Positions 17,240 to 64,000 of a stretch of 64,000 nucleotides of DNA are shown here, piece by piece; the stretch's first letter is position 1; each line of letters opens with the position of its first letter. Source of the stretch: Bryum argenteum (Eukaryota > Streptophyta > Bryopsida > Bryales > Bryaceae); NCBI GenBank assembly GCA_037043015.1, contig CM073322.1, positions 3,979,601-4,043,600 of the forward strand, given 5' to 3'. The notes beneath the pieces were generated by a model. That model ran no database searches and was not told the DNA's origin. It saw only the letters and a list, made by a program, of their open reading frames with translations. Position numbers and translations under genes: made by a program.

Positions 17240-18055
17240 TCTTTGTTGATGTTATGTGAAGCTTTAGATTGGAAATTAAAGTAACAAATTTAATATTGCA
17301 ATGGAAATGTCTTTAACCAGAAAATTGTTCACCTTCATCTCATCTATTAACACACTTGCAACAAAAAGAGTTATGAAGAGAAATTATTGGAGCCCTCTCA
17401 TGTCAGTAGCCAAGTAGCATAGGAATGGTGAAAACCGCCAAAAAATTTACAAAGGAAAAGTAGTTCATATCTAGTTCCTATGCACTCAAACCTATGCCTT
17501 ATAATCAAATCATCTTCGATTTAATTACGATTCCTACCACTAAAAGTGGACTCTTGATGGATTCTATCTCAAAAACTAATAAAAAGTTGAAATCCAATAG
17601 TGGATGAAGGGGATATAGCTCCTCAAAAGTCATCCATTTTCCACTTTTTTCATGTTAAGAACATCATTGCAAATCTAATACCAAAATTATTTGGATCAAA
17701 AATCTTCCAACTACAAATTTGTTAGAAATTATTTCAACTTTTCAAGGTCTTAATTAATTATGCACAAGACTTTCATGAGAAAATATTCACTAATTCACAT
17801 AATAGGCATGCAATATTGAAACATGCCCCATTTTTGATAACTCGTAAACAAAAGCTACCTTCTCTAATGTACATGCCATGAAGTCATACTTCATTTTAAG
17901 AGACTCTTATTTTCACCACACAAAATAGATTTGATTTGGTACACAATGTTACACGTAATTTCATCAAAAACAAAGTTTGGATGAAGAATCTATGGCTCTT
18001 CAAAGTTTCTGCCCTTCATCCGAAATTAATGTAGAAAAACAAAATTGGTGTCGTT
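17240..18055 (-). mobile_element. TTAA-family element, truncated (family A)
   Basis: This is an inverted relative of the element at 58529-59500. It contains ATGGCTCTTCAAAGTTTCTG and ends GTCGTTTAGGGGTTA. The other end is not clear and the TTAA is degraded to TTAC. A closely related stretch follows the upstream block at 40081-40712, and a partial one follows 28350, so it appears to have been carried along when the AP2 unit was duplicated. Confidence 0.6.
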
Positions 18056-29320: not shown

Positions 29321-30192
29321 TGAATGCTCATGCCAAGTAAAACTTAGAAATCCATCACAAATAAGTACAATAAGGATGGCATATAAAACACTCTATTAAT
29401 AAATGATTGTCACCCAAAATGATTCATGGAAATTTCCTCACACACAAGAACTCAAAGAAAAAACTACAACCCCATCATAATGGCACTATTCGAACGCCAA
29501 AATAACACATTTCTGGGGTGTTCAAAACGTAGATTTCTTACAATTTATGACCTATGAAATGCAATGAGGGGCAAATATTTCTCAACAGGACCAAAAAAAC
29601 ATTCGGATGTTCTTGAACGGTGGTTGAAAAGTATTTGTCTTCAACTAAATATTTTTCGGCGGGCATTCAAAACCGCAATGTTTTTGAAGTGTGCTTGAGA
29701 AATTTTTGCCCTCACTACCTCTTAAAGGTCAAAACTGTCAAAAATGTGTAAAGATAAAAGCACACGAGGGTGGAACAATCAGAGCCTAGCAAAATACTCT
29801 AAATTAAAGTACTCATAGTCAAACTTCACAGCTTTTCTCATATAATTGATTATTTTGGATATAAATATAAGTGTAAATTATGTTCTAAAGATAATTTCTA
29901 AGGTAGATTTTGGGGTTGAAGTATTTTACACAAATTTACTAACATATTCAACTTCCATAGTATAATTATATACGAATCTATTCCGTTTATTAGGGGATAA
30001 AAATACATTGATGTACTTTTGATCTCATTGCAATGACCTTGTAATGTCATATTTCTCGTTAGCTATTGCTCAGTTCATAATCTGAAACTTAAGCACCTAA
30101 TGTCGTTATCTTAATATGGTTAATACAATCAAGAATTACTCGAAATTGTTGATTTTTAACTAAAATTCACCATGAAGATCATATTTGTTATA

Positions 30193-30384
30193 CAGTGGTA
30201 CTTGGATAAGATCAACCTCGTTAAGATCAACATCTAGTTAAGAACGTTTTCCATGTCCCTTTTGGTCCAAAGAGGAAAGAGGCATTGTTTCGTTATGGGG
30301 CCAAAGATGCATTGTTTCGTCAACGCTTGGATAAGATCAACGTTTTTGTCTGTCCGAAAACGTTTATTTAACCAAGGACCATTG
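30193..30384. mobile_element. Tc1/mariner (pogo-like) MITE
   Basis: Starts CAGTGGTACTTGGATAAGAT and ends ACCAAGGACCATTG, imperfect inverted termini of about 14 bp, flanked on both sides by TA (30191-30192 and 30385-30386). Internal GATAAGATCAAC repeats. It is missing from the partner duplication near 62585. 192 bp, non-coding. Confidence 0.65.
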
Positions 30385-30815
30385 TATTGAGACAATATGC
30401 ACACTTTGAGACTTTGAGGATAAATAAGGTCTATTGGTTTGATCTCCGGGTCGGGGATAAAACTTGATGCAACCTTTGGGCAATGAAATTTTTTTATGTA
30501 AATTGATATGTGAGAGCCTCAAATTATCAAAAAGATTTAATATTGAACAGGTAGAATATAGTTTCCTTTGGGTCGAGGATAAAATATGAGACTCCAAATT
30601 GACTCAACGTAACCCAAATGTCATGTACAAATAATTTATGTGACATTATACCTAAATTGACCATGAATATTTTAAAGAACGTGATATTATCTATGATGTA
30701 GCAACACACCATCTATGCGCATGTAATATGCTGATTCTAAACCTTGGATTATTAGAGAACAATTTTCATTCCTCCTAGAAATTTAGAATTTTTCACAAAA
30801 TGTGACAGTACTTAA

Positions 30816-31077
30816 CCCCTAAACGACCACGGCCACTGATTCGGTTTTTACCGTCAAGGCAAAATAATGTATTACAATCAAATTCAAATGTTACGATCTC
30901 ACATCTAGTGATGATCCAACGGTTGAAAAGTTTCACACTACTACCTATGGTAGTCTACTTCAAGATCCTACGGTTGAAATTATCAAAAATTTCCAAAAAA
31001 AATTGGACGTACCCCCATTAGTACATAGTGGTTAGTGTTGGGATTTCAAGCTCCCAAACATCGTGGATTTTTAGGGG
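30816..31077. mobile_element. TTAA-flanked element, 262 bp
   Basis: Starts CCCCTAAACGACCACGG and ends CGTGGATTTTTAGGGG, with TTAA on both sides (30812-30815 and 31078-31081). The partner duplication at about 63711-63725 reads GACAGTACTAAAAACATAAC with no insert, an apparent empty site. Contains two copies of the phrase CC(A/T)ACGGTTGAAA. Confidence 0.75.
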
Positions 31078-31438
31078 TTAAAACATAACAAAGTACTCTA
31101 GATATTATGATTTTATAAGCATAAAACGAACTTAACAGAATCAAGGTTACAAGCGTATATCAGAGGTAAATAATTCGATTGTTTGTCCACCTCGATTCTC
31201 CTATACATTGCTCAAGATAGCTTCTTAATTATACTGTAAATAAATGTACTTGCCATATTTTCCCTTGTGGAAGCTCGGCAACCGTAATTTGTTGATTGAT
31301 TGGGCAGCCATACTATCTAGGGAATAAAATTTAAGGGTTATCGCCCTCATTTTAGAGTCAAGCCCTTTGCATCTCCTTCAAACAAATTGCAACCCTTCAA
31401 AACGAAGGGGTAATATTCTATAGACATGATTCATTTAA

Positions 31439-31698
31439 CCCCTAAAGATCCACGATGTTTTGGGAGCTTGAAATCCCAACACTGACCAGTATGTACTAAT
31501 GGGGGTACGTCCAATATTTTGGAAATTTTTGATAACTTCAACCGTAGGATCTTGAAGTAGACTACCATAGGTAGTAGTGTGAAAATTTTCAACCGTTGGA
31601 TCATCATTGAATGTGAGATCATAACATTTGAAGTTGACTATAAACTTTTTTTGGCCTTGACCGTAAAAGCCAAATCGGTGGCTATGGTCGTTTAAGGG
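31439..31698. mobile_element. TTAA-flanked element, 260 bp, inverted copy
   Basis: Near-identical inverted copy of 30816-31077, starting CCCCTAAAGATCCACGATG and ending GGTCGTTTAAGGG, with TTAA at 31435-31438 and 31699-31702. The two copies are 361 bp apart and could fold into a hairpin with a stem of about 260 bp. Confidence 0.75.
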
Positions 31699-31702
31699 TT
31701 AA

Positions 31703-40080: not shown

Positions 40081-40712
40081 GTAGCATACATTAGAAATGG
40101 TGAAAATTGCCAAATTATTTACAAACAAAAAGTAGTTCAAAACTATATCCTTTGCTATCAAACCTCTACCTCATAATTAAAACATCTTCGATCTAATTAA
40201 GATTTCTATGACCAAAACTAGACTCTAGATGGATTCTATCCCAAAAATAAAGATGAAATCAAACTTTGGATGAAGGAGATATAGCTCCTCAGAAATCATC
40301 CATTTCTCTACTTTTTTCATTGTAGAAACATCATTGCAAATCTAATACCAAATATGTTTGGATCAAAAATCTTCTAACTACAAATTTGTTAGAAATTATC
40401 TTAAGATCATTAATATGCACAAAATTTTCATGAGAAAATATTTACTAATTCACACAAAAGTCTTGCAATAGTAAGATATGCCCCATTTTTGAAACTCGGA
40501 AACAAAAGCTACCTTCACTAATGTGCATGCCATTAAGTCATGCCTCATTGTATGAGTTTGCAATTTCTACCATAAAAAATAGACTTGATTTGGGACACAA
40601 ATCATATGATTACATCAAAAACAGAGTCTAAATGAAGAAATTATGGCTCTTCAAAGTTTCAGCCCTTCATTCGAAATGTAGGGAAACGGCATTGGGGTTG
40701 TTTAGGGGTTAT
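40081..40712 (-). mobile_element. TTAA-family element, truncated (family A)
   Basis: Inverted relative of 58529-59500: contains GATGAAGGAGATATAGCTCC, TTATGGCTCTTCAAAGTTTC and ends GTTTAGGGGTTA. The far end is lost at the junction with the AP2 upstream block. Same arrangement as at 17240-18055. Confidence 0.6.
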
Positions 40713-43768: not shown

Positions 43769-44231
43769 CTTCAAACGAAGCACATGAACTTTGAAGAGCC
43801 ATAACTTTTTCATTCGGACTCTGTTTTTGACGAAATCACTTGGGTTGGGTCCCAAATTAAGCCTTGTTTATGTGGTAAAAATTGCACACTCACACAATTA
43901 AGTATGAAAAAATGGCATGAATTTTAGTGAAGGGAGTATTTGTTTTCTGGGTTTTTAAAAATTTGGCATGTTTTACCATTGCAAGCCTATTATGTGACAT
44001 CAAAAAGGTTTTTGCATGATGTGTTTTAGACAAGTGTAATCTTTAGATGCATCCCACAATCTTTGCAGTTGGAAGTATTTTGATCCAGATAGTTTTAGTA
44101 TTGGCTTTGCAATGATATTTCTACGATGAAAAAAGTGAAAAAGTGGATGATTTTTGAAGAGATAGATCTCCTTCAACCATCGTTAGATTTTGAATTTTTA
44201 TTTTTAAATGGATTCCAATTACAGAACGTTT

Positions 44232-45585: not shown

Positions 45586-46945
45586 GAACTTTGAAGAGCC
45601 ATAACTTTTTCATTCGGACTCAATTTTTGACGAAATCACTTGGGTTGGGTCCCAAATTAAGTCTAGTTTAGCTGGTAAAAATTGCACACTCACACAATTA
45701 AGTATGAAAAAATGGCATGCATTTTAGTGAAGGGATTACTTGTTTCTTGGGTTTTTAAACATTAGGCATGTTTTACCATTGCAAGCCTATTATGTGACAT
45801 CAAAAAGTTTTTTGCATGATGTGTTTTAGACAAGTGTGATCTTTAGATGCATCCCACAATCTTTGTAGTTGGAAGTATTTTGATCCAGATAGTTTTAGTA
45901 TTGGCTTTGCAATGATATTTCTACGATGAAAAAAGTGAAAAAGTGGATGATTTTTGAAGAGATAGATCTCCTTCAACCATCGTTAGATTTTGAATTTTTA
46001 TTTTAGAATGGATTCCAATTAGAGTGTTGTATTGGTGATAGAAACCTCGATTCATTCGAAGGTATATTGAAGATAACGTATAATTTGAGTGCTAGGGATC
46101 TAGGTTTGGACTATATTAATTACTTTGTAAAATATTTGGCAGTTTTTATCATTATTGAATCATCTCTTCCCTCCTTTTATATACACACCCCATTTCAACA
46201 AATTTAATTAATCCTAGGTATTTAATAGAAACTACTTACCTTCATCTTATAGGCCAAAACTTTTGATCATGTTTCATATAAAATACATAGGAAAAGTATA
46301 AATACTACTCTCTTTCTCTATTTCCCTATACACCTTACACTTCCCTATGGCTCGAATAGTAGTCTTGCAATGATAAAAATTGCCAAATAGTTTACAAAAC
46401 AATTAATATAGTCCAGTAATAGACCCCTTACACTCAAATTATACGTTATCTTCAATATATCTTCGAATGGATCGAGGTTCCTATCACCAATACAACACTC
46501 TAATTGGAACCCATTCTAAAATAAAAATTCAAAATCTAACAATGGTTGAAGGAGATCTATCTCTTCAAAAATCATCCACTTTTTCACTTTTTTCATCGTA
46601 GAAATATCATTGCAAAGCCAATACTAAAACTATCTGGATCAAAATACTTCCAACTGCAAAGATTGTGGGATGCATCTAAAGATCACACTTGTCTAAAACA
46701 CATCATGCAAAAACCTTTTTGATGTCACATAATAGGCTTGCAATGATAAAACATGCCAAATGTTTAAAAACCCAAGAAACAAGTACTCCCTTCACTAAAA
46801 TGCATGCCATTTTTTCATACTTAATTGTGTGAGTGTGCAATTTTTACCAGCTAAACTAGACTTAATTTGGGACCCAACCCAAGTGATTTCGTCAAAAACT
46901 GAGTCCGAATGAAAAAGTTATGGCTCTTCAAAGTTCATGTCCTTC
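45586..46945. repeat. Large internal inverted repeat of the hAT-like element
   Basis: 45586-46160 and 46365-46945 are near-identical in opposite orientation (for example AACTTTGAAGAGCCATAACT versus AGTTATGGCTCTTCAAAGTT), separated by about 200 bp. A direct relative of the first arm lies at 43786-44220 and of the second at 48750-49405. The arm sequence is related to the TTAA-flanked element at 58529-59150. Confidence 0.85.
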
Positions 46946-48745: not shown

Positions 48746-49404
48746 TATAAATACTACTCTCCCTCTCTATTTCCCTATACATCTTGGACTTCCCTATGGC
48801 TCAAATAGTAGCCTTGCAATGATAAGAACTGCCAAATATTCTATAAAGTAATTAATATAGTCCAAACCTAGATCCCTAGCACTCAAATTATACGTTATCT
48901 TCAATATACCTTCGAATGGATCGAGGTTTCTATCACCAATACAACACTCTAATTGGAATCCATTCTAAAATAAAAATTCAAAATCTAACGATGGTTGAAG
49001 GAGATCTATCTCTTCAAAAATCATCCACTTTTTCACTTTTTTCATCGTAGAAATATCATTGCAAAGCCAATACTAAAACTATCTGGATCAAAATACTTCC
49101 AACTACAAAGATTGTGGGATGCATCTAAAGATCACACTTGTCTAAAACACATCATGCAAAAACCTTTTTGATGTCACATAATAGGCTTGCAATGGTAAAA
49201 CATGCCTAATGTTTAAAAACCCAAGAAACAAGTACTCCCTTCACTAAAATGCATGCCATTTTTTCATACTTAATTGTGTGAGTGTGCAATTTTTACCAGC
49301 TAAACTAGACTTAATTTGGGACCCAACCCAAGTGATTTCGTCAAAAATTGAGTCCGAATGAAAAAGTTATGGCTCTTCAAAGTTCATGTCCTTCGTTTCT
49401 AGAG

Positions 49405-55850: not shown

Positions 55851-55856
55851 TTTTAA

Positions 55857-56785
55857 CCCCTAAAAATCCAGGCGTTTCCTCGACCTCCATAACCAAAAAC
55901 TGCCATCTTTAACCTTCGTTGGGAAATGGGGAAATGGAGAAACTATTTTTTTGGTTTTAGACTTTGAATCGTAAGATCTTGTACCTAACTTGTATACAAA
56001 AGACTGGTCAAAATTTCAACCGTTGGATGTTTGTCATTTGTGAGATCATAACAATCAAAGTTTGACCAACACTTTTTTTTGCCGCTGCGTGAGAAGCATT
56101 GTCTAAATGGTGCCAAGGGCAACTTGATGATTGTTACTTCAAATATTTTTCCCTCATTTTTTTTCATGTAGGTAATCAAGGTGGGTATGCTCATGCAAAA
56201 TTTTAGAGACCGATTTCACTTTTTGACCTTAATGTAAAATATTTTATGAAAGATGGTCTAAAAACAACCATATAGTAAAACAAGCACCACGTATGATATA
56301 TTTAGTTTGAGAAAAATCTGGACGGTGAGAAGGTGCATTCATGATAATGTGAATTTTGAAAAAAAAAAAAAATCTTGGAAAAATCCAAAATCTCAATTTT
56401 TGGCAATTTTTGAAAGAAAAAATTGTAAAATTACTAGAAATTGTGAAGATTGTTTTTGAAAGTTTTGAAGGCTGCCCTTGTAAAATTGGTAAACTTTTTG
56501 ACTCCGGATACTTTGAAATTTGAATAGTAATTTGGTAATGAACATATTTCCAAAAAAAATTAAAATAAAAAAAATTATTTTAAGCTGCCCGTTTTGGACT
56601 TGAAACCTAAAGTTTCTAGATGAAGGTTATAAAATTAAAATTTGGCTTTACAAATTTTACCACATACACATTACAGTATGGGGAGCATCCAGTAAAAATC
56701 TTAGTTAATAATATCAATTTAATTCCTTAAAATGAGCTGCCCGAAACCTCAAAAAACCAAATCCGTTTTCCTGGATTTTTAGGGG
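55857..56785. mobile_element. TTAA-flanked element, 929 bp (family B)
   Basis: Starts CCCCTAAAAATCCAGGCG and ends CCTGGATTTTTAGGGG; inverted termini of about 15 bp, with TTAA on both sides (55853-55856 and 56786-56789). Very similar along its length to 62644-63566, so both moved fairly recently. No transposase frame. Terminal CCC and TTAA target resemble the piggyBac superfamily. Confidence 0.8.
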
Positions 56786-56789
56786 TTAA

Positions 56790-58520: not shown

Positions 58521-58528
58521 TCTATTAA

Positions 58529-59500
58529 CCCCTAAACGTCCCTAGTGTCGAAAAACGACATTTTGGATGAAGGGCAGAAACTTTGAACAGCCATAACTTC
58601 TTCATCCAGACTCCGTTTTCGACGAAATCACTTGGGCTGGGTCCCAAATTAAGTCTAGTTTGTGTGGTACAAATTTCAGATCCATACAATGAAGTATGAA
58701 TTAATGGCATGCATTTTAGTGACAACAGCTTTTGGTTTTGAGATTTCAGACATTGGGCATGTTTCACCATTGCAAGCCAATTATGCAAAACCAAAAATGG
58801 TTTTTCATGATTTTTTTTTATATAAGTATGATCTTAGATGTATTCTAACAACTTTCTAGTTGCAAGTTTTTCGATCCGAATAACTTTGCTAGTGGATTTG
58901 CAATGATGTTTCTACAATGCAAAAAGTGAAAAAATGGATGATTTTTGAGGAGCTAGATCTCCTTCATCCACCGTTAGATTTCGACTTTATTCTTTGGGAT
59001 AGATTCCAATCATAGTCTATTTTAAGTGGTAGAAACCTTAACCTAATTGAAGATGTATTGAAGATAGGGCATGGATTTGAGTGCAAAGGGTCTAGTTTTG
59101 GACTATTTTTCCTTTGTAAATTTTGAGGCAGTTTTCACCATTGGAAGGCTACTATTTGAGCCAAGATATTTTTTTGATGAATTTTTTTGGTACAAAAGTG
59201 CTTTTGAGATGAAGATGAACAACTTTCTAGTTGGTGATTTTTTGATTGCAAATTTCATGTTGGTAGTATTTTCACTTCAAAGTGGAAATGATGGTATTTT
59301 GTAGCCTGTTTTGCGCACTAATACGTTACGATCTCCCAATCTATGAGGTCCCATGAGTCTAGTTTTGGCCCACATGATCTACTACAAGTCTATTACAAGT
59401 TTGTACGGTTAAGATCTGAATAGCCTATCTTTATTTTCATCTATATCACTTTTTTTGAAAATGAGTTTTTGGCTAAAAATACCCCAAGGACGTTTAGGGG
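58529..59500. mobile_element. TTAA-flanked element, 972 bp (family A)
   Basis: Starts CCCCTAAACGTCCCTAG and ends AAGGACGTTTAGGGG, flanked by TTAA (58525-58528 and 59501-59504). The interior contains AACTTTGAACAGCCATAACT and the GACGAAATCACTTGGG block also found at 43825, 45625, 46880, 49340 and, more decayed, at 17990, 24320, 40620 and 51940. This is the best-preserved family A copy. Confidence 0.78.
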
Positions 59501-59970
59501 TTAAGATCAACTATGAAGATAACAACTATTGGATTTGGCTATAATCTATCTTCATATGCAATTACATTGACCAATCAAGATTGAACGACCTACTTGTGAC
59601 CTATGTTTGAAGTAATGATAAACCAGTACGAACCTATGTCCAGAGGAAAGTGAAAAGGTGAATTTAGAATCATATTAATATGGAAAAAGTCTAGAATTCT
59701 ATAGTGAGGCACTCTATGCATGCTTACCGCAATGTAATTTTCAATTCCAAAAATATGTTGGGAACGGAGAACCGGGAAATTGAGAACTAAGGATGTTCAA
59801 AGGAGCTTCTTCAATTTGTGAAATTTTTGAAAGTCGTTGTTAAAGAGTCTGCTCCATGCATGCCACAAAAGACTAAAAACTTACTCACCAAAATAATCAA
59901 CTCTGTAAGAGAGAAATTTGCTACTACGAGGCATAAATTTGGCTAAAAATAGGTTGAGAAATTTCACCCC

Positions 59971-61746: not shown

Positions 61747-61789
61747 TTTATTGAAAAGATCCAAATTTAAAGGCCCATAGACGCATGAG

Positions 61790-64000
61790 TTCAATAAGGA
61801 TGACGTATGCAACAGTCTATTAATAATTGCAACAGTCTATCAAAAAGATTCATATCACACAAGATTTCAAAGAGAAAACTTAACCTTCATTGTAATGGCA
61901 TAATTTTATCAAAATAGCACATTCTGGGGTGTTCAAAAAGTCACAAGTAACGTAAATTTCTGAACATATTTGACCTATGAACTACAATGAGGGGCAAATA
62001 TTTCTCACTAGTAACTCAAAAACATCCGGATGTTTTTGAACAATGGTTGAAAGTATTTGTCCTCAACCAAATATACTTCAAGGGGCAATCAAAACCGCAA
62101 CATTTTTGAAGTGTGGTTGAGAAATTTTTGACCTCGCTCCTTCTTTCAAGTAAAAAATTGCCAACAATGTGTGAGGATAAAAGCACATTAGCGTGGAACA
62201 ATCTCAACCTACTTAGCAGTATACTCCAAAAGTATTCAAAGTCAAACTTCAGAGCTTTGCTCATAAACTTGATTATTTTGGGTATAACTATAATTTATTT
62301 ATTTTGAAGGCATTTCTAGGGTAGATTGCGGGATTTGAAGTTTTTTATACTATTTAGTGATCATTGACTTCCATAAAATAAAAAATTTACATATCTCTTC
62401 ATTTCAGGAAAAAAAAAATATTGTTGATACACTTTTAATGTCATTGCAATGACCTTGTGATGACCTTGGAATGTTACCTTTCTCGTTTAGCTAGTGCTCA
62501 GTTGCCACTCTGAAAGCATCTAATGTGGTTATGATAATATAGTGAATACAATAAAAAATCACTAGAAATGTCAATTTGTAACTAAAATAGACCATGTACC
62601 AAAAATTTATGTGAAATTATACCTTTGATTCAGAGAATATTAACCCCTAAAAATCCAGGGGTTTCCTCGACCTCCAGAACCAAAAACTGCCATTTTTCAC
62701 CTTCGTTGGGAGATGGGGAAATGGAGAAACTTTTTTTTCTGGTTTTAGACTTTGAACCGTAAGATCTTGTACCTAACTTGTATACAAAGGACTGGTCAAA
62801 ATTTCAACCGTTGGATGTTTTTCATTGTGAGATCATAACAATCAAAGTTTGACCAACACTTTTTTTTTGCCACTGCGTGAGAGGCATTGTCTAAATGGTG
62901 CCAAGGGCAACTTGATGATTGTTATTCCAAATATTTTTCCCTCATTTTTTTTCATGTAGGTATTCAAGTTGGTTATGCTCATGCAAAATTTTAGAGACCA
63001 ATTCCACTTTTTGACCTTAATGTAAAATATTTTATGAAAGAAGGTCTAAAAACAACCATATAGTAAAACAAGCACCACGTATGATATATTTAGTTTGAGA
63101 AAAATCTCGACGGTGAGAAGGTGCATTTATGATAATGTGAATTTTGAAAAAAATCTTGGAAAAAATCCAAAATCTCGAATTTTGGCAATTTTTGAAAGAA
63201 AAATTGTAAAATTACTAGAAATTGTGAAGATTGTTTTTGAAAGTTTTGGAGGCTGCCCTTGTAAAATTGGTAAACTTTTTGACTTCGGACACATTGGAAT
63301 TTGAATAGTAATTTGGTAATGAACATATTTCTAAAAAAAAAAAAATTAAAAAAATTAATTTTAAACTGCCCGATTTGGACTTGAAACCTAAAATTTCTAG
63401 ATGAAGGTTATAAAATTAAAATTTGACTTTGAAAATTTTACCACATACACATTACTGCATGTGGAGCACCCAATAAAAATCTTAGGCAAAAATATCAGTT
63501 TAAATGCTTAAAATGAGCTGCCCGAAATCTCAGAAAACCGAATCGGCTTTCCTGGATTTTTAGGGGTTAAAGAACGTGATATTATCTATAATATAGCAAC
63601 ACACCATCTAAGGGCATTTAATATGCTCACTCTAAACCTTGAATTACTTGACAACAATTTACATTCCAAACATTTAGAGTACTTTTGTGAATTTTTCACA
63701 AAATGTGACAGTACTAAAAACATAACAAAGTGCTTTGGTTATCATGTATTTATAACAATAAAGCCAAATCAACCTAATTGATGTTACAAGCATATATCAC
63801 ATGTAGATAATTTATGATTGCTCATTCACCAAGGTTCCTGTATACATTGCACTAGGACAACTTCTTGATAACATACAAGTGCTATAAAGCTTTTGCCATA
63901 AGTTCCCTTGTGGGAGCTCGACGACCAAAATCTTCCTAGACAACTATAATTTGATAGGGCAGTCATAACATATTGACAGGGAATAAAATTGAAAGGCTAT
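61790..64000. repeat. Segmental duplicate (partner 29330-31340)
   Basis: Colinear with 29330-31340 apart from the 923-bp TTAA element here and the 192-bp and 262-bp elements there. It runs off the window end. No gene. Confidence 0.8.
62644..63566. mobile_element. TTAA-flanked element, 923 bp (family B)
   Basis: Starts CCCCTAAAAATCCAGGGG and ends CCTGGATTTTTAGGGG, flanked by TTAA (62640-62643 and 63567-63570). The partner duplication at 30665-30680 reads GAATATTTTAAAGAAC, a single TTAA with no insert. This empty site shows directly that insertion duplicated TTAA. Confidence 0.85.

Follow-up and report, generated by a model that had tools for sequence, protein, structure and literature searches.

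Known piggyBac elements and their occurrence in plants

piggyBac elements are defined by short terminal inverted repeats that start with CCC, and for the insect piggyBac a mode of movement has been established that includes excision at TTAA, reinsertion at TTAA and duplication of these four bases. The closest described systems are piggyBac (PDB 6x67/6x68) and piggyBat (9c0f), with which the elements described here share the TTAA target and its duplication, the CCC-starting repeats, a transposase of the PF13843 type with aligned aspartates and a Cys-rich C-terminus. They differ in their size (5.7-6.4 kb in six elements, 2.2-2.6 kb in three), in their moss host and in their coding part, which comprises transposase frames of 831-910 aa (L084, L088 and L089) and an upstream ORF with a conserved region of ~105 aa. 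Insects also contain piggyBac-derived MITEs, which resemble the element studied here as short, high-copy, TTAA-flanked derivatives, although with 923 bp the latter is long for a MITE and it resides in a plant.

Regarding plants, either Yu et al. 2022 or Bouallegue et al. 2017 may reportedly already describe piggyBac elements. A survey, in the excerpt available, places PiggyBac among the superfamilies common to all taxonomic groups studied (PMC4438587), whereas a 2025 paper, in the portion cited, describes piggyBac as broadly distributed among animals, fungi and protists and only occasional in plant genomes (PMC12732532). The original prediction, that piggyBac-like elements are seldom described in land plants and that a TTAA family would therefore be notable, holds as far as this rarity is concerned, but not for mere presence, since the survey finds the superfamily in all groups. 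Repeat tables of land plants, in their excerpted form, carry the same superfamily label, with 1,230 matches amounting to 122 kb in C-fern and one 75-bp match in Stipa; unlike the elements reported here, these entries are annotation counts that come without an intact transposase, termini or empty sites. Among the matches listed in literature searches of incomplete journal coverage, none concerned piggyBac elements in mosses.

Anatomy of the 923-bp element

The window, that is, the whole stretch of 64,000 nucleotides from Bryum argenteum that was analysed, contains at 62644..63566 an element of 923 bp without any ORF of 150 aa or more (features are given without strand unless one is stated). With a probability of about 96%, we read it as a non-autonomous member of a piggyBac family in this moss genome, a MITE-like derivative formed by internal deletion. 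The element is bordered by the left (62640..62643) and right (63567..63570) TTAA of a 4-bp target-site duplication, so that the predicted element with TTAA at both ends proved exact in its coordinates. Its terminal inverted repeat, CCCCTAAAAATCCAGG, is perfect over 16 bp and begins with CCC; with the TTAA included, the two ends (TTAACCCCTAAAAATCCAGG / CCTGGATTTTTAGGGGTTAA) are 100% complementary over 20 nt. The left copy of the repeat (62644..62659, plus strand) is the counterpart of the 3' end in the transposase-bearing elements discussed below, and the right copy (63551..63566, minus strand), which continues on the minus strand as CCCCTAAAAATCCAGGAAAGCC, corresponds to their 5' end, for example CCCCTAAAGGCCCAGGAAAGC in the L083 family. 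A tblastn comparison of the 923-bp element with piggyBac transposases gave no match.

Copies, termini and target-site duplication

A DNA search of the element's own genome (258.8 Mb, 25 contigs) yielded 42 matches from the best 40 of 3,947 candidates scored, a lower bound that is biased to the closest copies. Leaving aside two partial matches (74% identity), there are at least 40 full-length copies, with identities of 97-100%. All of them (40/40) have equal 4-mers on both flanks, namely TTAA in 38, ATAA in one and TTAT in one, and no flanking column is fixed outside these 4-mers. The exact 16-mer end occurs 1,110 times genome-wide and is preceded by TTAA in 1,066 cases, so TTAA duplication at most intact copies, as had been anticipated, is borne out both in the copies and in the termini. 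The 20-mer end occurs 532 + 534 times, compared with zero for a reversed-pattern control, and TTAA makes up only 0.6% of the 4-mers in the window; the TTAA-flanked ends are therefore not due to chance. A broader end pattern, TTAACCCCTAAANNNCC, has 10,006 occurrences against two for its reversed control, which suggests that several thousand related elements are present in the genome.

The nature of the duplication bears directly on two alternative superfamilies. In the first alternative, the 923-bp element would be a Tourist-like MITE of the PIF/Harbinger superfamily that duplicates 3 bp (TTA/TAA), of the kind common in plants. Both trinucleotides are contained in TTAA, and a MITE review, in the section available, names TAA/TTA as the duplication of angiosperm Tourist elements (PMC10004981). 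However, four bases rather than three are duplicated in every one of the 40 copies, including those with ATAA/ATAA and TTAT/TTAT, and PF13843 is the only transposase match in the three loci that were scanned against Pfam (L085, L088 and L089). The PIF/Harbinger reading was consequently rejected and we regard it as extremely improbable. In the second, the element would be Tc1/mariner-like (Stowaway), duplicating only TA but preferring TTAA as its target, a reading under which the flanks T-TA-A can be split into TA and element ends A...T. For the right side of the ATAA copy, this 2-bp TA model predicts GGGGTTAA, whereas GGGGATAA is observed. The copies with ATAA/ATAA and TTAT/TTAT show that the whole 4-mer, outer bases included, has been duplicated, and the related transposases are of the piggyBac type; this second reading was likewise rejected, with hardly any probability left to it.

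In pairwise comparisons, the 40 best-matching copies differ by 0 to 3.7% substitutions (median 0.65%), although this sample favours close copies. By these low values many copies are young, so that the system moved recently and may still move. On contig C1, 13 distinct copies of ~0.9 kb were found by their exact end, and these are 91-99% identical to the copy in the window.

Several arrangements of copies relative to each other were also observed. At G000:C2:1912898-1912943, two ends of the L083 family face outward and have only the TTAA in common, as would result from the insertion of one copy into the TTAA flanking another. In L058, a copy is directly followed by TTAACCCCTAAA, the TTAA being common to both, and in L024 another piggyBac transposase gene harbours a nested copy of the short element.

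The paralogous segment and empty sites

The segment around the element has a paralogue in the same window, at about 29361-31341, which is real but diverged (69-91% identity in pieces). The aligned pieces are 61785-62596 versus 29361-30174 (73.5% identity), 62593-62624 versus 30622-30653 (91%), 63567-63718 versus 30672-30815 (82%) and 63717-64000 versus 31080-31341 (69%). At the position that corresponds to the insertion, the paralogue has a single TTAA and no insert (30672..30675), as had been claimed. The reciprocal situation is found a short distance away, where a shorter TTAA-flanked relative at 30812..31081 (262 bp plus TTAA on each side) is missing from the paralogous site at 63.7 kb, and thus from the 62-64-kb segment, in which TAAA, differing from TTAA by a single base, occupies the site. 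An inverted relative, 90% identical to this 262-bp element, lies at 31435..31702 (minus strand).

The window also holds a second copy of the 923-bp family at 55853..56789, 92.8% identical and with TTAA on both sides, and another TTAA-flanked family, represented by a 972-bp element with CCCCTAAACGTCC at both ends (58525..59504). Six diverged relatives of the latter are present in the window, 72-80% identical over 430-730 bp, at 17296-18026, 40096-40711, 43787-44219, 45587-46153, 46348-46945 and 48797-49394.

The search for empty sites was extended to 63 distinct TTAA-flanked elements, whose flanks, fused across a single TTAA, were aligned to the whole of the fetched DNA, the results being tallied by script. 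A match spanning the joined flanks was obtained for 17/63 elements, and for 46/63 there was none within the fetched DNA. In seven cases the site is gap-free with an intact single TTAA (E0, which is the window element, E10, E17, E31, E46, E52 and E62). Another five have a gap-free site with one TTAA base changed in the best such match (E9, E32, E38, E55 and E56), two are gap-free but three or four bases off TTAA, with flanks that lie in related repeats (E6 and E26), and the remaining three show gapped or self matches at the joined flanks (E30, E34 and E42). Besides their intact empty sites, E31 and E62 have further, more diverged relatives without TTAA. E62 is the full-length, transposase-bearing element L089, and its empty site, located in L044, shows 99.5% identity across 189 bp. 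Single-TTAA empty sites, as expected for piggyBac, are hence found for the short element as well as for a full-length one. The original prediction had named two findings that would speak against a piggyBac assignment, PIF/Harbinger-like ends together with a TTA/TAA duplication, and empty sites without TTAA; neither is what the copies and sites display, although some diverged empty sites have lost the TTAA.

piggyBac transposases in the genome

The piggyBac-type DDD transposase that had been proposed as a target for a genome search is present, and in many copies. A search with the PF13843 profile returned 776 candidates; the 116 that were scored all lie above the cut-off, which gives at least 116 piggyBac-type matches with a best value of 7.4e-82. 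A stop interrupts the domain in 23 of these 116 and is absent from the other 93. The same profile found no match in 14 control genomes, which constitute a weak control.

The L088 protein, when compared with the PDB at a cut-off of 0.01, matches only piggyBac 6x67/6x68 (1.4e-28) and piggyBat 9c0f (3.8e-28). Its aspartates in TIDE, TMD and GVD align to residues 268, 346 and 447 of the 6x67 chain (counted from the alignment), which we take to be the catalytic aspartates, and all three (D509, D604 and D722 of L088) are invariant in 8/8 aligned transposases. The Cys-rich C-terminus was recognised by eye in six of these eight (L085, L086, L088, L089, L090 and L092), while it is degraded in L087 and absent from the frame of L084. 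Transposase frames reach 831-910 aa in L084, L088 and L089. L083, L084 and L091 have interrupted transposase frames, because of which these copies may be inactive.

Full-length elements and their relation to the 923-bp element

Ten 7-kb regions around transposase matches were fetched (L083-L092), and in six of them the transposase is enclosed by TTAA and matching inverted repeats of the CCCCTAA type, delimiting elements of 5.7-6.4 kb. These are L083, L084 and L091, with ends CCCCTAAAGGCCCAGG and a length of 5.7 kb, L088, with ends CCCCTAAAGATCCAAG and a length of 6.4 kb, and L089 and L092, of 5.8 kb each. In L085, L086, L087 and L090 a scripted search gave no matching end pair; inspection by eye revealed one recognisable end and a probable decayed one in L090. 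The mutual identity of L083, L084 and L091 is 97.9-99.8%, and this full-length family is probably recent, given an identity of 99.755% between L084 and L091 across 5.7 kb.

Of the 61 occurrences of the 25-base 5' end that belongs to the L083 family, nine sit 2,693-2,703 bp upstream of a transposase domain on the same strand, compared with an average of 0.1 pairs within 6 kb, and a maximum of three, upon random placement (2,000 trials). For the remaining 52, the matches listed include no transposase in the 6 kb downstream on the same strand. A compact second piggyBac group of ~2.2-2.6 kb with unlike ends, TTAACCCTTAAA / TTAACCCCAAAT, was observed in L071, L072 and L075, the last with one base different.

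In the 931-bp frame of the short element (923 bp plus the TTAAs), the stretches 1-382 and 772-931 align collinearly with the ends of L083, at 73% and 69% identity, and the same applies to L084 and L091. Across the fetched relatives, the aligned subterminal stretches are ~68-77% identical to the 923-bp element. Since it aligns with both ends of full-length elements, the 923-bp element most plausibly represents a non-autonomous derivative shortened by deletion, and internal deletion of a related full-length element would be the simplest account of its origin. Transposase elements had been expected to have matching ends of their own, and this is mostly borne out by the TTAA, the CCCCTAA-type repeats and the subterminal homology, but the ends are related rather than identical: in this limited sampling no full-length element ended in exactly CCCCTAAAAATCCAGG, and only related ends such as CCCCTAAAGGCCCAGG and CCCCTAAAGATCCAAG were found. 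Thirteen listed transposase matches fall within the stretches of the first 100 listed CCCCTAAAAATCCAGG ends, and 12 of them lack such an end within 5 kb. The remaining one, at C1:24627430 (L083), has two ends at 4.7-5.6 kb, but they come from a separate 0.9-kb copy outside the L083 element. A lone end at C1:16797835 was considered as a full-length element and rejected, as by eye it adjoins an LTR retrotransposon.

The relation to transposase-bearing elements also bears on a third alternative, in which the 923-bp element would belong to another TTAA-specific superfamily and be merely piggyBac-like at its ends. Kolobok and Sola3 likewise use TTAA. The short element, however, shares terminal and subterminal homology with elements that encode a piggyBac transposase, which makes an origin from Kolobok or Sola3 very unlikely. 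The assignment to a piggyBac-type non-autonomous family, as originally predicted, is supported instead by the 4-bp TTAA duplication, the PF13843 transposases and this end homology. For such a derivative, the piggyBac DDD transposase from a related full-length element would bind the ends of the 923-bp element in trans and excise it at TTAA, and the element would then reinsert at another TTAA, with duplication of the four bases.

An upstream ORF with a conserved, putative N-terminal transposase region

A second ORF lies upstream of the transposase ORF, and its last ~105 residues are conserved among families, the divergent L086 included. This region (LRSLPVRKKSR..RHHFYRQ..ILGW) is located at L088:5362-5682 (minus strand), L089:5375-5692 (minus strand) and L085:474-767 (plus strand). 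In L085, the upstream ORF region and the transposase form a single ORF of 1,331 aa, while in L088, L089 and L091 GT...AG boundaries, placed by eye, delimit putative introns of 94, 92 and 77 bp between the two ORFs. The first exon would accordingly encode a predicted N-terminal transposase domain. Searches with this region gave nothing convincing in the PDB (best E 0.41) or in Pfam (best 0.13, in one of seven members).

Chlorophyll-binding genes in the same genome

The chlorophyll a/b-binding family has 90 matches in this genome. LHCII-type genes are densely clustered, with near-identical profile scores, at G000:C6:9320599-9366664 and C5:16213940-16356462. The clusters at G000:C5:8161886-8412977, C5:14730833-14760859 and C2:25064562-25094660 have weak matches to the chlorophyll-binding profile, at positions ~31-161, and are possibly expanded early-light-induced proteins. 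Compared with the PDB, an Lhca2-like ORF has its best matches in 8htu, 7xqp, 6l35 and 7ksq (445-409 bits), presumably Physcomitrium patens photosystems, followed by a second 8htu chain (391) and 7wfe (379). An LHCII ORF matches 9vfj_2, a long chain, with 534 bits, 8htu with 459, 7xqp with 457, another 9vfj chain with 454 and 8c29 with 442. Taken by themselves, these photosynthesis genes indicate a moss close to Physcomitrium as the most likely host, in line with the land plant presumed in the original prediction.

Significance of a moss piggyBac lineage

The piggyBac superfamily is known; what sets this moss apart is its unusually large and recent presence. No description of a large, recently mobile moss lineage with an unmatched N-terminal transposase region was found in the literature searched. 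A broader reading, on which the evidence leaves us about evenly divided, is that these elements constitute a native lineage, recently and perhaps still active, that forms a major repeat class of the moss (~10,000 TTAACCCCTAAANNNCC ends), has its own N-terminal domain outside Pfam and the PDB and represents the first well-defined system of full-length and non-autonomous piggyBac elements in a land plant.

piggyBac is a standard tool for genome engineering, and plant-adapted piggyBac transposases could be obtained from a moss in which several related families occur together with open transposase frames and near-identical copies. An early arrival of piggyBac in land plants could also be tested against horizontal transfer.
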